Of a stretch of 38,051 bases of DNA, positions 2,768 to 15,764 are shown piece by piece. This DNA comes from Nitrososphaeraceae archaeon (GTDB taxonomy: Archaea > Thermoproteota > Nitrososphaeria > Nitrososphaerales > Nitrososphaeraceae): assembly GCA_021325295.1 (NCBI GenBank), contig JAJPHM010000058.1, positions 1 to 38,051 on the forward strand, written 5' to 3'. Below the pieces are notes generated by a model. That model was given only the letters and a program-made list of their open reading frames with translations, did no database searches and was not told the DNA's origin. The position numbers were made by a program, and so were the translations under genes. Position 1 is the stretch's first letter, and every line of letters begins with the position of its first letter.

Positions 2768-3213
2768 GTATAATTCTCTTACTTTCTTACCTTATATAGT
2801 TGATGGTTTTTGTTGTAATTGTATCATGAAATTGGTTGCTATCATCATCTGCTGCAACTTTATACCCGCAGGAAACCGAGGTCGGGTGCGTGAAATATGA
2901 TTTAACGTTGGATATTCTTGTTCTTACAACCAGCCATTTTTCCTTTTTCAATTTATTGCGAGTGGAGCCCAAGGAGAGTGAATGTGTAAAAGTCAGCTGC
3001 AATTAACACAATTCCATATGCTTGAGCCTGTTGTAATATTGTATGCCAATTTTGTGAATGCATGCATATGAACATTGGAAACGAAGCTAGCACTCATAGA
3101 TATGTCAGCCGTCGAGCTACTTACTTGCTCTACCAACTACTGAAATCATCATTATCAATATGATATTCCTACAGGATTGTGTAGGTGAACACTTGGCATG
3201 AATGATTGACACA
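2768..3213. other. Intergenic stretch without a supported gene
   Basis: These 446 bases separate the antitoxin promoter side from the end of the DUF6659-like gene. I see short open frames in both directions, but none has a plausible start, domain or protein-like composition. The part next to 2767 should hold the antitoxin promoter; AT-rich sequence (ATATAAGG on the minus strand, near 2795) would fit a TATA box. Confidence 0.4.
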
Positions 3214-3597
3214 TCAAGTCTTGATCTGGATCGATCTGAACTGCTTGACAATGTTATCCTTTGTGCCTCTGGGCTCCCTGTTTCCTGCACAGGATATCAC
3301 AGCGATCAGATACATCTTGTCTGGCAGCGCCATTACCACGACTTCAACAGCATCAAAGGATGCAGAGACATAGTCCAGATGACCAAGAGATTCCGACCAT
3401 ACAGACGACATGCCTACAAGGAGAGCGGCCTGGACATGGAGCATATGGAGCTTTGAAGGATGAAGGTCAAGCAGTCCTTTTTGCATGGCTACATCAAGCT
3501 TGTCGTTAACTGCTGCGATATACAGGATATCTTCATGTGCGCTGAACAGCTGTTCTATGGTCTCCTGTACATAGCTGTCAGCGCTGGCACTTTTCAT
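3214..3597 (-). CDS. DUF6659-like (thaumarchaeal roadblock-like) protein
   Basis: With the ATG at 3597 the product is about 127 residues. It contains LFSAHEDILYIAAVNDKLDV, a hydrophobic helix (LHMLHVQAALLVGM), a strand-rich stretch (LDYVSASFDAVEVVVMAL) and PDKMYLIAVIS. This alternation matches small DUF6659/roadblock-like proteins abundant in Nitrososphaera: 'I-x-F-A-G-V-I-D' strand, helix, then a 'V-V-M-S-F-P' strand. Their function is unknown. The open frame extends upstream to 3693, but that extension runs into the end of the TnpB element and has no family similarity, so the shorter start is preferred. A related N-terminal domain occurs in the gene at 22935. The mobile element immediately upstream may have separated the gene from its original promoter. 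Confidence 0.65.
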   Translation of the reverse strand: MKSASADSYVQETIEQLFSAHEDILYIAAVNDKLDVAMQKGLLDLHPSKLHMLHVQAALLVGMSSVWSESLGHLDYVSASFDAVEVVVMALPDKMYLIAVISCAGNREPRGTKDNIVKQFRSIQIKT

Positions 3598-3676
3598 CCT
3601 ACGATCGTGCAGCGCTTGGAATGAGATGTAGATTTGTAAGTAAAGCCAGTTACATACTCGGCAAACAGGTGAACTA

Positions 3677-3696
3677 CCCACGACTTTAGTCATGGG
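3677..3696 (-). ncRNA. Terminal hairpin of TnpB element, candidate end of omega RNA
   Basis: Read on the minus strand, CCCATGACT-AA-AGTCGTGGG forms a 9-bp stem (one G-U pair) whose loop holds the tnpB stop codon TAA. A hairpin overlapping or just after the tnpB stop is the usual right-end structure of IS200/IS605-family elements. In studied systems this region is transcribed as the 3' part of the guide (omega) RNA. The exact element end and guide are not visible from one copy. Confidence 0.6.
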
Positions 3697-4870
3697 CTTC
3701 TACTACTATTGATTCCTGCTTCCCAGACCTTTCAGTCTCTACAGGCGTAACTTCCCTACGTTCCATAGGTAGGCTGCTTTTTTTAGTGGCAGCAATAGAT
3801 TCCAATCCTCTCTGAAGGATATTGATTGCAGCATTGTGGTCTCTGTCCAGTACCAGACCACATTTATCACATCTATGGATACGAACAGCCAACGATTTTG
3901 GTACTTTGTTACCACAGTGAGAACAATCAACAGAAGTATTTGGCGAGTATACTTCAACAACTTTTTTGACCTTGTATTTCAGCATAGAACCAAACGTGAC
4001 CCATCCGCTATCCAGTATGGCTCTTGCCAATCTATGGTTTCTGGTCATGTTCAATACTCTCAGCTTTTCTAAGAATATCAAATCATATCTTGCAGAATAT
4101 GAGCTGGACTGCTTGTGCAGGAAATCCATTCTCTGGTTCCTTATCCTTTCATGCAGCACCTGCAGCCTTGTTTTGGCTTTCTGGTAATTTGCAGAACCTT
4201 TCTGCCTTCTTGATAGCTGTCTTGAAGCTCTCCTTAGCGGCTTTAACATCTTTTTCAGAAACAATGGATTCTCTACTTCATGGTTGTCAGAGTCATGTAC
4301 AAACTTGGTTATGCCAACATCAATACCAACTGATTTCTTTATGTCTACAAACCTGAATATTGGTTCTGCAAACTCGCAGCAGATAACAGCATACCATTTA
4401 TTCTTTCCTTCTCTCTTTACTGTCACCTGCTTGATATTCTCCGCTTTTCTATGGAGCTTGATTCTCAGCTTGCCTATCTTTGACAGCCACAGCTGGCCAT
4501 CTGAAGTGATGTCAAATCCTGATTGATTATAGGTGAAGGAATTGTAATCTCCAGAATGCAAATACTTCAACCTACCCACCTTGTGGCCATTCTTCCTTAA
4601 TGCTTTTAGTGCTTTGTTGGCAGAAGCTATCTTCTTGGCTACCATCTGAAGCATCTTGGAATGGTAATTTCTCAAGAATGGCTCCTGCTCTTTTAGCTCT
4701 GTCAGAGCATAGTTCATATCATATTCTGATTCACTAGTAAAACCATTGTCAAGAAAGTAGTTGTATACCCAGCGACAACCATCCAGCGTTTCTGCAAGCT
4801 GCTGCTCCTGCAAAGCTGAAGGATACAGGCGAAACTTGTAGTTGCGCTGGTGCAGATGGCGATTCTTCAT
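3686..4870 (-). CDS. tnpB: TnpB RNA-guided endonuclease (IS200/IS605-family OrfB)
   Basis: The 394-residue protein is full length for TnpB. It starts with the N-terminal helix-turn-helix/wedge region (YKFRLYPSALQEQQL and CRWVYNYFL). The RuvC active site is intact: D184 in SVGIDVGITKF, E268 in LIFLEKL, and D344 in LDRDHNAAINI. The zinc ribbon C316-C319...C334-C337 (CSHCG, CDKCG) sits between the last two. TnpB uses an omega RNA made from the element's own 3' end to cut matching DNA next to a short target-adjacent motif, which favours retention of the element; it is not the transposase. No tnpA (Y1 transposase) is seen, so this is a tnpB-only element. A TATA-like sequence (TTAAATA on the minus strand, near 4915) lies upstream of the ATG. 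Confidence 0.95.
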   Translation of the reverse strand: MKNRHLHQRNYKFRLYPSALQEQQLAETLDGCRWVYNYFLDNGFTSESEYDMNYALTELKEQEPFLRNYHSKMLQMVAKKIASANKALKALRKNGHKVGRLKYLHSGDYNSFTYNQSGFDITSDGQLWLSKIGKLRIKLHRKAENIKQVTVKREGKNKWYAVICCEFAEPIFRFVDIKKSVGIDVGITKFVHDSDNHEVENPLFLKKMLKPLRRASRQLSRRQKGSANYQKAKTRLQVLHERIRNQRMDFLHKQSSSYSARYDLIFLEKLRVLNMTRNHRLARAILDSGWVTFGSMLKYKVKKVVEVYSPNTSVDCSHCGNKVPKSLAVRIHRCDKCGLVLDRDHNAAINILQRGLESIAATKKSSLPMERREVTPVETERSGKQESIVVEAHD

Positions 4871-9075: not shown

Positions 9076-9128
9076 ATGTCTTGCAATCATACAATCTTTA
9101 CAGCTCCAGTTTGTAGCTTGCAAGACAT
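9076..9128. promoter_or_regulatory. 11-bp inverted repeat upstream of the pilin operon
   Basis: ATGTCTTGCAA at 9076-9086 is the reverse complement of TTGCAAGACAT at 9118-9128. The pair sits in the spacer between the pilin gene (minus) and the orphan gene at 9309 (plus) and could bind a dimeric regulator or form a hairpin. The second arm belongs to a 21-base sequence repeated at 15744-15764. Confidence 0.45.
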
Positions 9129-9132
9129 ACAA
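9112..9132 (+). repeat. 21-bp direct repeat, copy 1 (other copy 15744-15764)
   Basis: The sequence TGTAGCTTGCAAGACATACA plus one further A occurs exactly here and at 15744-15764. The core CTTGCAAG is palindromic. Both copies are in intergenic DNA upstream of operons, here about 75 bases before the pilin start on the other strand. Confidence 0.7.
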
Positions 9133-11507: not shown

Positions 11508-12023
11508 CTAGTGATTTAAAGAAAGCTCTAATCGTGTCATGGTGCGGTCCTCTTGGTTGCCTAAATCAACAATCTTCATACCTTCTATAGTCCCTGCTTT
11601 AAGTCTATGAATAATTTTGCTATCGTGAATTAAGAAATGACCACAATCATATAACCACCCTGTATAAATATGCAAAGCATCATCTGCAGATATGTGAAAT
11701 CCGTCTATCAATAACCTAGATTGTGCAACGATAACATGGTCTATTGGAGCAATTAGAAATGAAGAATATTCATTTGTACGCGTGATGCGTTCGACAAAAG
11801 TTGCTATGATTTGCTGCTGCTCTGATTTCGTTAAGGCATCTTTTGGTTTTCTTGCCAGTCTATCAATTACTGCAACTGCCTCATTTATTGACCAGATAGA
11901 GGTAACAATTTGTAGGTCATCTGTTCTTGCAGCGTTGGCTATGTCATCTACCAAGTCTGAGCCTATTTCAGTTACAAATTCTTTGATTAGTGCAGAAGTA
12001 TCAAAGTAGACTCGTTTCTTCAC
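11508..12023 (-). CDS. PIN-domain ribonuclease toxin (VapC-like)
   Basis: The 171-residue product has all four expected acidic positions: D8 in RVYFDTSALIKEF, E48 in SINEAV, D114/D115 in ISADDALHIY and D134 in FLIHDSKII. PIN toxins are Mg2+-dependent RNases, often cutting tRNA or rRNA when their antitoxin is degraded. At 171 residues it is longer than a typical VapC (about 130) because of an extra helical insertion around residues 56-90 and a C-terminal extension. The start ATG overlaps the stop of the upstream small gene, which is presumably its antitoxin. Confidence 0.9.
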   Translation of the reverse strand: MKKRVYFDTSALIKEFVTEIGSDLVDDIANAARTDDLQIVTSIWSINEAVAVIDRLARKPKDALTKSEQQQIIATFVERITRTNEYSSFLIAPIDHVIVAQSRLLIDGFHISADDALHIYTGWLYDCGHFLIHDSKIIHRLKAGTIEGMKIVDLGNQEDRTMTRLELSLNH

Positions 12024-12265
12024 CGATTTTCGTCACGCATCGCAGCTAATTCATCAGTGATATTACCAAAGCGTTTCAATATGCTGTGTGTCTTAGCCAA
12101 GTCAGCTTGTGATTTATTTGCACCATAATGCTTGAGTAGGTCATTCATTTCTGAATGAATCTGCTTTTGATTCACAAAATTCAATTTCAAATTCAATTTG
12201 AACTTGGATTTTTCTTCATTACTCAGTAGCACAGGCACGACTCTCACCAACCATCCCGTTAACAA
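12020..12265 (-). CDS. Small protein, presumed antitoxin of the PIN toxin at 11508
   Basis: The frame encodes up to 81 residues. The start is uncertain: TTG at 12265, GTG codons a few residues later, and ATG for MNDLLKHYGANKSQADLAKT are all possible. The C-terminal part is charged and helical (HSILKRFGNITDELAAMRD). No RHH or AbrB motif is clear. Its role is inferred from the 4-base overlap with the PIN toxin start, the classic antitoxin-toxin arrangement. Confidence 0.6.
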   Translation of the reverse strand: MLTGWLVRVVPVLLSNEEKSKFKLNLKLNFVNQKQIHSEMNDLLKHYGANKSQADLAKTHSILKRFGNITDELAAMRDENR

Positions 12266-13998: not shown

Positions 13999-14006
13999 TG
14001 TTTAAA
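13999..14006 (+). repeat. 8-bp target-site duplication, left copy
   Basis: TGTTTAAA directly abuts the left inverted repeat of the element at 14007-14842 and recurs directly after the right inverted repeat (14843-14850). An exact direct repeat flush with both ends of an inverted repeat is the mark of transposon insertion. Confidence 0.75.
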
Positions 14007-14087
14007 AGTTCCGTTGCAATAACGAGTGGCTAGCCATTTTTGCTCGGCTGTTGCACTCCGAGGGATAATGTTGCAGGTCGAGGGATG
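14007..14087 (+). repeat. Left terminal inverted repeat
   Basis: Inverted copy of 14764-14842; the outer 52 bases are a perfect match. Confidence 0.85.
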
Positions 14088-14101
14088 ATTGCATTTCTGC
14101 T

Positions 14102-14566
14102 TTACGGTACTACTGCAAACTGCTTTTCTGCCATAAGTGGCTCACCAAGCCTGACTCCTAAAGTATAATTGCCTACTTGTTGAATCCGAATATCCTGATA
14201 TGCTGACCAGTCATACACATCGTCAATATAGTGATAGACTGGTTGAGGTCCATTAATGTCGCAACTTACAATCGGTAAACCTGACCCCCAAACAGGCAAA
14301 GATTTTAAGAATTGATTAGTGTTCCAAATTGCAGCATTTGGACTCTGGCAATAATATCCATATCCTTCTACTCTTACATCAAATCTTATCGGTTCACCTG
14401 CATGGTACGAGTCCTTCAAACCTTCTACAACAACAGTGACATGATTTGACTGTGGAAAGATTGGATTACTATTCTCAGTTGAGCCGATATCAGAAGTCGA
14501 AAAAATGATTACCAAAGCTATTCCTGCAATTAGGCCGATTATGACGGGTATGATTAGGCTATCCAT
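14102..14566 (-). CDS. Membrane-anchored secreted protein, transposon passenger
   Basis: The 154-residue product has one N-terminal membrane segment (SLIIPVIIGLIAGIALVIIF) followed by a soluble outside-facing domain with beta-strand character: HVTVVVEGLKDSYHAGEPI, RFDVRVEGYGYYCQSPNAA and the ending NYTLGVRLGEPLMAEKQF. Two cysteines (in YYCQ and VSCD) could form a disulfide. The 'V-x-x-G-x-x-x-x-Y-x-x-G-E-P-I-x-F' phrase resembles Ig-like/DUF-type domains of archaeal surface proteins; function is unknown. It is the only gene inside the inverted-repeat element, with the stop codon 14 bases from the left arm. Its promoter should lie in the AT-rich interior 14567-14763. Confidence 0.75.
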   Translation of the reverse strand: MDSLIIPVIIGLIAGIALVIIFSTSDIGSTENSNPIFPQSNHVTVVVEGLKDSYHAGEPIRFDVRVEGYGYYCQSPNAAIWNTNQFLKSLPVWGSGLPIVSCDINGPQPVYHYIDDVYDWSAYQDIRIQQVGNYTLGVRLGEPLMAEKQFAVVP

Positions 14567-14763
14567 TGCAAGTTGAAATTTAAAGATACAGCAATTAATC
14601 CTATCTAGAAAAGATTTTGCTTGCTTTCCAGAATCCTATTTTACGTATTCCATCCAATGGCTAATAGAACGATAATAAAAACAACTCGGGCAAATGATAT
14701 TGTTTCGTCAATTGCATTTCAATAACCTTCAAACAATATTTTATAGATAATTCTAATAGGTTT

Positions 14764-14842
14764 CATCCTTCGACCTGCAACACTATCCAAGAGTGCAACA
14801 GCCGAGCAAAAATGGCTAGCCACTCGTTATTGCAACGGAACT
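14764..14842 (-). repeat. Right terminal inverted repeat
   Basis: Inverted copy of 14007-14087; 14791-14842 matches perfectly. Confidence 0.85.
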
Positions 14843-14850
14843 TGTTTAAA
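14843..14850 (+). repeat. 8-bp target-site duplication, right copy
   Basis: TGTTTAAA follows the right inverted repeat without a gap and equals 13999-14006. Confidence 0.75.
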
Positions 14851-14854
14851 GAAA

Positions 14855-14863
14855 ATTTATAAA
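14855..14863 (+). promoter_or_regulatory. TATA box for the RHH/PIN toxin-antitoxin pair
   Basis: ATTTATAAA is centred about 28 bases before the ATG at 14887 and only five bases from the transposon's right target duplication. It favours the ATG at 14887, probably leaderless, over the in-frame ATG at 14866, which lies too close to the TATA box. Confidence 0.55.
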
Positions 14864-14886
14864 CGATGTTTTGTATATATGCCGTC

Positions 14887-15174
14887 ATGACGTCAAAACT
14901 CACAGTTTATGTCGATGACTCTCTAAAGAGGCTAATCAAAGAAACCTCTGGAAACAGAAAGATAAGTGAAATTGTGAGTGAAGCGCTCGAATCTTATCTT
15001 TCGGCCAGCTCGATTAGCTACTTCAAAGTTCCAGGCGGCAGCAAGAAGCCTAACTCTGTTGCCACTGGCGAATTGCCATCACTTTCCGAGGTCAAGAAGC
15101 GAAGGCCAAAAGCGACTGGTTCCTCCGCAGAAATAATTGCCAGTCAGAGAAGAGACAGGAAAGAAAAATGCTAG
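14887..15174 (+). CDS. Ribbon-helix-helix antitoxin (VapB-like)
   Basis: From the ATG at 14887 the protein is 95 residues. Its N-terminus is a ribbon-helix-helix fold: strand KLTVYVDDSLKRLIKETS, then helix KISEIVSEALESYLS. The rest is a basic, flexible tail (VKKRRPKATG, IASQRRDRKEKC) likely to bind the toxin. An in-frame upstream ATG at 14866 adds seven residues but is less likely given the TATA box. Its 3' end overlaps the start of the PIN toxin gene by 7 bases. Antitoxins of this type repress their own operon as dimers. Confidence 0.9.
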   Translation: MTSKLTVYVDDSLKRLIKETSGNRKISEIVSEALESYLSASSISYFKVPGGSKKPNSVATGELPSLSEVKKRRPKATGSSAEIIASQRRDRKEKC

Positions 15175-15656
15175 TTTATCTTGACAGCAGTGCGATAGTA
15201 AAGAGGTACATTGAAGAGAAAGGCTCAGAGGCAATAGATACTGTGTATGCAAGCATTGAACAAGACGGCAACAATAGGGCTGCCCTTTCAATATGGAATC
15301 TTGGAGAAGTAATTGGAGCTATCGATACAAGGCGACAAAGGGGAGACATTGATGAAAAATCTATGGATGATGCCATAAGGCTCTTTGCAGGAGAGACAAA
15401 AAAGTTCGTTGCAATGAGGCGGTTAATTGTTTTACCAATAACAGGTAGGCTGCTTGAGCAGTGCAGAGAACTGGTTGTGAAACATCACATCTATCAAGCC
15501 GATGCATTGCAATTGGCCGCTGCAAGATATTCTGATTCGATGCTTCTGATAACGGCTGACAAGAGACTAGCGGATTGCGCAAAAGTGGAGGGAATTGAAG
15601 TCGCAAATCCAGAAAAAGACAGCCAAAAGATAGTAGCCGCACTTGGCGGCGCTTGA
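15168..15656 (+). CDS. PIN-domain ribonuclease toxin (VapC-like)
   Basis: This 162-residue protein has an intact PIN active site: D6 in LVYLDSSAIVKRY, E47 in LGEVIG, D112 in IYQADALQLAAAR and D131 in LITADKRLA. The order and spacing match VapC ribonucleases. The start ATG lies inside the end of the antitoxin gene. In contrast to the PIN genes near 2100 and 26743, this one reads cleanly to a normal C-terminus (VEGIEVANPEKDSQKI). Confidence 0.93.
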   Translation: MLVYLDSSAIVKRYIEEKGSEAIDTVYASIEQDGNNRAALSIWNLGEVIGAIDTRRQRGDIDEKSMDDAIRLFAGETKKFVAMRRLIVLPITGRLLEQCRELVVKHHIYQADALQLAAARYSDSMLLITADKRLADCAKVEGIEVANPEKDSQKIVAALGGA

Positions 15657-15743
15657 TATGATATCACCTGTATCCACAAGGTTCGTTTGCAGTCTGAAAA
15701 TTCCTGCTGGGACTTTGGTTTGAAATGGTTTTGTAAGGCAGTC

Positions 15744-15764
15744 TGTAGCTTGCAAGACATACAA
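15744..15764 (+). repeat. 21-bp direct repeat, copy 2 (other copy 9112-9132)
   Basis: Exact copy of the sequence at 9112-9132, about 35 bases before the ATG at 15799 that opens the MoxR/VWA cluster. It includes the palindromic core CTTGCAAG. Confidence 0.7.

Follow-up and report, generated by a model that had tools for sequence, protein, structure and literature searches.

A very probable mobile insertion cassette derived from an IS6-like transposon in a Nitrososphaeraceae genome

The stretch of DNA that was analysed (the window) comprises 38,051 nucleotides and lies on contig C39 of a 79-contig draft assembly of 2.69 Mb that is 99.7% complete. At positions 13999 to 14850 it carries a unit that is very probably a mobile insertion cassette (MIC), which arose by internal deletion from a passenger-bearing IS6-like transposon of the Nitrososphaeraceae, could be mobilised in trans, and was inserted upstream of a VapBC-like gene pair. 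This reading was based on the ends of the unit, its target duplication, the homology of its ends to those of transposase-bearing elements, the homology and the position of its passenger gene, and purifying selection on that gene. The features of the region are as follows.

13999 to 14006, plus strand: left copy of the 8-bp target duplication TGTTTAAA, read directly.
14007 to 14088, plus strand: left terminal inverted repeat, matched by profile R1; it corresponds to the right end of the parent and adjoins the stop codon of the passenger.
14013 to 14018, plus strand: subterminal repeat 1, GTTGCA, from alignment A1, in the same columns as in relatives.
14050 to 14055, plus strand: subterminal repeat 2, GTTGCA, followed by a CGAGGGA block, from alignment A1.
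14070 to 14075, plus strand: subterminal repeat 3, GTTGCA, followed by CGAGGGA, from alignment A1.
14102 to 14566, minus strand: passenger gene of 154 aa, with an N-terminal membrane anchor and an extracytoplasmic part, from its reading frame and hydrophobicity.
14567 to 14762, no strand: non-coding stretch upstream of the passenger, where the parents carry the transposase and other cargo; presumed region of the deletion.
14763 to 14842, minus strand: right terminal inverted repeat, from the inverted-repeat reading and an R1 match at 14842-14766.
14843 to 14850, plus strand: right copy of the 8-bp target duplication TGTTTAAA, read directly.
14856 to 14863, plus strand: TATA-like box TTTATAAA of the downstream antitoxin gene, outside the element and intact; its promoter role is presumed.
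14887 to 15656, plus strand: VapB-like antitoxin (ATG at 14887 or 14866) and PIN-domain VapC (15168-15656; PF01850, 1.5e-8), both outside the element.

By direct reading, the region consists of TGTTTAAA, an 836-bp unit and TGTTTAAA again; the duplication was exact and lay flush against both tips. The chance of two random 8-mers of the window being identical is 3e-5. The arms 14006-14058 and 14791-14843 were 100% complementary over 53 nt, a stretch that includes one base of the duplication, and the next 26 nt inward matched at 92%. Since the outermost base of the 53-nt match belongs to the duplication, the element itself spans 14007-14842. A preliminary description of this DNA had reported a non-autonomous transposon with an exact 8-bp duplication, a conclusion that was confirmed by the flush repeats and by profile matches on both tips. 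Its arms of about 80 bp with a perfect outer part also held, with the correction that the inner limits lie at about 14088 and at 14763-14766 and that the inner third contains mismatches and a 2-nt gap.

Only one plausible gene was found within the element (154 aa, minus strand, 14566-14102), and it occupies most of the interior. Its product had a single strongly hydrophobic segment, which was N-terminal (KD 3.15), and tblastn detected no transposase similarity inside the element, in keeping with the earlier claim of a single membrane-anchored passenger and no transposase. The structural features of a MIC were thus all present: ends of a transposon group, the lack of a transposase, a passenger and the 8-bp duplication typical of the group. 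Two other classes of element were considered and rejected. A MITE, which is short and non-coding, was ruled out by the intact 154-codon gene under selection; a compound transposon, with two complete IS copies around its cargo, was ruled out since the arms are ends of about 80 bp only.

The relationship of the ends to known transposase-bearing elements was examined with R1, a profile built from nine ends of such elements or their direct neighbours, with the window excluded. Over the window R1 gave exactly two matches, both starting from model position 1 on the tips of the element: the left arm at 14007-14087 (positions 1-81 of 82, E 1.8e-6) and the right arm at 14842-14766 (E 2.8e-3). In the genome-wide search the corresponding values were 1.3e-4 and 0.2. 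The closer relatives of the window element had ends that share a slightly variable tip, AGTYCYGT, and that carry, at constant positions, three subterminal repeats with the pattern TGTYGMnnnnCGGGnG. The window ends kept the tip, as AGTTC(C/T)GT, together with the three repeats, whose layout aligned column for column with that of the relatives (alignment A1). Judged by this sequence comparison, homology between the window ends and those of IS6-like transposons extends over the full length, from tip to tip. The possibility that a host gene is merely framed by a palindrome of chance or regulatory origin, with no transposon involved, could draw on the fact that the genome has the whole unit only once; it is contradicted by the flush 8-bp duplication and by this tip-to-tip homology, and its probability is close to nil. 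In a separate observation from alignment A1 (window, L009, L036 and L070), the spacing between subterminal repeats 1 and 2 fell into two classes, of about 37 and about 27 nt, which differ by about 10 nt or roughly one helical turn.

The preliminary description had proposed a search for further copies of the arms and for a full-length element with the same ends and a transposase. Transposase-bearing elements with homologous ends were found in the same genome, but none had near-identical ends. No near-identical second copy of the arms was present in the 79 contigs of the own assembly, and neither a second cassette nor an autonomous element with near-identical ends was found there or in 69 other family genomes, although such searches may miss other cassettes with diverged ends. 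Among all 70 family genomes the whole element was present in its own genome only. Conservation of the gene with its flanking DNA in relatives that lack the inverted repeats, which the same description had named, jointly with the absence of other arm copies, as grounds for giving up its reading, was not observed. The most similar other end was a solo end on contig C12 (C12:1481; L096, 1481-1559), which was 76% identical to the arm of the window; it may be left over from the same subfamily. A second solo end, on C35 (L097, 8992-9072), also had no partner.

One relative was a full element on contig C76 of the same genome (2430-20496), which has its own ends and CCAATGCA on both flanks. Its order is end, a gene of 183 aa, KwaB, KwaA, transposase, passenger and end; that of the window element is end, 197 bp, passenger and end. 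The transposase of 520 aa is IS6-like and its frame (C76:4888-6450) is uninterrupted. The relative of the window passenger starts 138 bp behind it and ends 11 bp before the right end of the element. A provirus-like insertion interrupts this gene, whose two pieces lie 13.35 kb from each other. The insertion (C76 6878-20233; L009/L010; 13.35 kb) has a direct repeat of 6-7 bp (TTCAGGA) and ATACCTCTAAAGTATCTT near both ends, and two of its ORFs resemble a head protein (PHROG 37140, E 1.6e-4) and a packaging ATPase (phrog_2666, 2.9e-18), respectively. This provirus-like element was inserted into the transposon later, outside the Kiwa genes.

In a sister element from another family genome (G019:C20:74926-75874, 949 bp, 8-bp duplication ACAGTGCA), the left end is followed by the decayed C-terminus of a transposase and then by an intact gene for an anchored protein of 160 aa. 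In the window, no transposase vestige scored above shuffles in the 197-bp stretch at 14567-14762; the deletion is therefore inferred from the G019 sister and the C76 element. The ancestor would have consisted of a left end, cargo (defence genes or others), the transposase, a membrane-anchored passenger and a right end, in this order, and in the simplest history all DNA from the left end up to the passenger would have been lost by an internal deletion. The three subterminal repeats are presumed transposase binding sites, through which a related transposase could act in trans and move the cassette by a staggered cut, with 8 bp of the target being duplicated. The cassette would in this way have entered the spacer upstream of the VapBC pair, with a passenger that probably acts outside the cell.

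The closest relative of the passenger was the C76 copy (82% nucleotide and 74% amino acid identity). The differences between the two fell at codon positions 1, 2 and 3 in the numbers 28, 16 and 41, and three methods gave dN/dS values of 0.19-0.35. By these measures the passenger is under purifying selection, averaged over both branches. The stop codon lay 13 bp from the end of the element in the window, as against 11 bp in C76. More distant relatives (21-32% identity) were scattered in family genomes with no R1 ends or transposase nearby, which indicates that the gene family extends beyond the transposon. These relatives, together with the solo ends on C12 and C35, would fit a history in which a host gene for a surface protein, already in place, became enclosed by two separate solo ends and the resulting new cassette then moved once. 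Such a capture is improbable for the window, since a 74%-identical relative already occupies the same slot of a transposase-bearing element, with a stop-to-end spacing of 11-13 bp in the two; any capture most likely predates the split of the two lineages.

The passenger had no match in Pfam, NCBIfam, PHROGs or PADLOC and no relative in the PDB, a genome-wide scan with the single protein returned nothing, and its single-sequence fold model was poor (pLDDT 49.6). It is most likely a cell-surface protein with a strand-rich ectodomain. The window passenger and the protein encoded at C76:1731-2333 have only the anchor in common (54% over 24 aa). One N-terminal membrane segment is found in each of these two and in the 160-aa protein of the G019 sister, the sequences being otherwise (almost) unrelated. 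The site behind the transposase thus appears to accommodate membrane-anchored proteins, although three cases are too few for certainty, and in C10 and G025 it is filled by other proteins.

It is a separate matter, compatible with the cassette reading, whether the element is still active, with the C10 or C76 transposase acting in trans and the perfect arms reflecting recent movement. The uninterrupted frames of both transposases (C10:10904-12574 and that of C76) and the perfect arms and duplication are consistent with this, but we consider it doubtful: the element is present as a single copy, perfect arms of 54-61 nt are usual in the group, and the arm repeats of the window (GTTGCA/CGAGGGA) are unlike those of the C76 element (GTCGAG/CGGGG). 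The latter difference suggests, from sequence, a different binding specificity of the transposase. Relatives of quite different sequence also have perfect arms of 54-61 nt. The earlier proposal of recent movement was consequently not upheld, given that no near-identical second copy was found, that long perfect arms are normal in the group and that about 18-20% of bases differ between the passenger and its closest relative.

The element sits between a putative SRPBCC-type gene and the VapBC-like pair. The preliminary description had suggested that the insertion might alter the toxin-antitoxin promoter. The duplication ends at 14850 and the intact TATA-like box lies at 14856-14863, before the ATG at 14887, so the insertion stops short of the core promoter, which probably survived. 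The suggested alteration was not supported. The predicted empty site, CCTACC-TGTTTAAA-GAAAATT, was not found; a search via the VapBC flank yielded no empty allele and only a weak VapB relative on C47 (52% amino acid identity, with no VapC). Two further features of the window were noted. A 26-bp direct repeat, 96% identical and with a CTGTAGCTTGCAAGACATACAA core, is present at 9107-9132 and 15739-15764, and a further PIN-domain-like toxin gene (11508-12265, minus strand, 171 aa), with a short partner ORF of 81 aa upstream, was identified by eye within a few kb of the VapBC pair (14866-15656).

Of wider interest are the parent transposons, which often carry antiviral genes. The C76 transposase matched the Pfam model DDE_Tnp_IS240 (PF13610) above its cut-off and had weak zinc-ribbon and SWIM similarity. 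For five transposases of the group the best NCBIfam model was IS6, at 87-116 bits; as these scores are below the cut-off of 125, IS6-like is a nearest-family label. Transposase matches were found in 47 of the 70 family genomes, and named relatives came from Nitrososphaerales, Thaumarchaeota, Euryarchaeota, Methanocellaceae and Hadesarchaea MAGs. Full elements had inverted ends of 53-84 bp, and in eight of them exact, flush 8-bp duplications were present; duplications of this length are typical of the IS6 family. No 8-bp duplication was detected at the G025 element or at L126, and L124 and L129 gave off-register end matches only. The duplications and the cargo, the latter identified by PADLOC/Pfam similarity, were as follows.

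C76, full element: CCAATGCA; complete Kiwa pair, KwaA (4148-4744, E 2.5e-27) and KwaB (3119-4111, E 1.1e-20).
C10 (L036), full element: TGCATTGG; TIR-domain protein and OLD/AriA-like ATPase.
C53, full element: CGCAGGGG; no match in the tested cargo.
G011 (L072), 6.9 kb: ATCGCTCT; Eco57I/type IIG-like methylase.
G002, 3.3 kb: ACTTGTAT; no match in the tested cargo.
L121, 2.8 kb: ATTCATCG.
L122, 6.2 kb: GATCCTGA; no match in the tested cargo.
L130, 2.8 kb: TGTTTGAC.
G025 (L070), 4.3 kb: NucC/PD-DExK-like DUF6602 nuclease.
L126 (Methanocellaceae): type IIG restriction-modification.
L129 (Cenarchaeum): PDC-M41-type pair and methylase.

At C76 2414-2437 and 20489-20512 and at C10 8815-8840 the ends of neighbouring elements lay head to head with exactly 8 bp between them (TGCATTGG/CCAATGCA), and the same 8-mer recurred on two contigs. 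This arrangement may be due either to insertion beside an existing end or to a preferred target.

As a lead, the sequence similarities of the cargo raise the possibility that the IS6-like parents form a defence-carrying transposon group across archaea. A more far-reaching proposal, which we put forward tentatively and regard as rather less probable than not, is that uncharacterised archaeal IS6-like transposons with a SWIM domain and three-repeat ends are standard carriers of antiviral cargo (Kiwa, TIR-domain protein, NucC-like nuclease, type IIG restriction-modification) plus a membrane-anchored surface protein behind the transposase; the window cassette would then be the surface module moving alone, with a protein that might work on the cell surface, for instance by hindering viruses from entering. 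Should the parents prove to be vehicles for antiviral genes, profile R1 would allow such elements and their cargo to be delimited across archaea.

Mobile insertion cassettes, which consist of IS ends and a passenger without a transposase, are a recognised kind of element, and some can be activated by a cognate transposase (PMC3129680); MIC231 is cited in PMC2266710. The window element resembles MIC231 and its relatives from the Bacillus cereus group, which are related to IS231/IS4, in that it combines complete IS ends with a passenger and lacks a transposase. It differs in being IS6-like rather than IS4, in being archaeal, in its three-repeat ends of about 80 bp and in its membrane-anchored-protein passenger. 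The preliminary description had called such units seldom described; this seems right for Thaumarchaeota, but the kind itself is established as MICs (PMC3129680, PMC2266710). With MITEs the element has in common its non-autonomy, inverted arms and target duplication, and it differs from them by a gene under purifying selection. No report of IS6-like cassettes in archaea was found in the open-access literature, and absence from it is not proof. The window element very probably shows that transposase-less cassettes, known mainly from bacilli, arise in ammonia-oxidising archaea as well (the host being of soil type), here out of IS6-like transposons, and the G019 sister, with its dying transposase tail, suggests a route by which they do so.

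The Krupovic et al. 2019 catalogue (PMC6563490) concerns the same host group, Thaumarchaeota; IS-like transposons are listed there as elements of 1-2 genes, and in the passages covered neither a transposase-less cassette nor multigene IS6-like elements are described. On the Pfam match (PF13610), the parents would share an IS240/IS6-type catalytic domain with the IS6 family, including ISDsp3, and they have 8-bp duplications as that family does. They differ in their size of 2.8-6.9 kb, in the multigene cargo of many, in their repeat-bearing ends of about 53-84 bp, and in transposases of about 390-560 aa that have a SWIM-like CxCx(n)CxH motif and a zinc ribbon and fall below the NCBIfam cut-off. 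Whereas the 2021 review of the IS6 family named one passenger-bearing member, ISDsp3 (PMC7986276), the archaeal parents appear to be compact carriers of antiviral genes.
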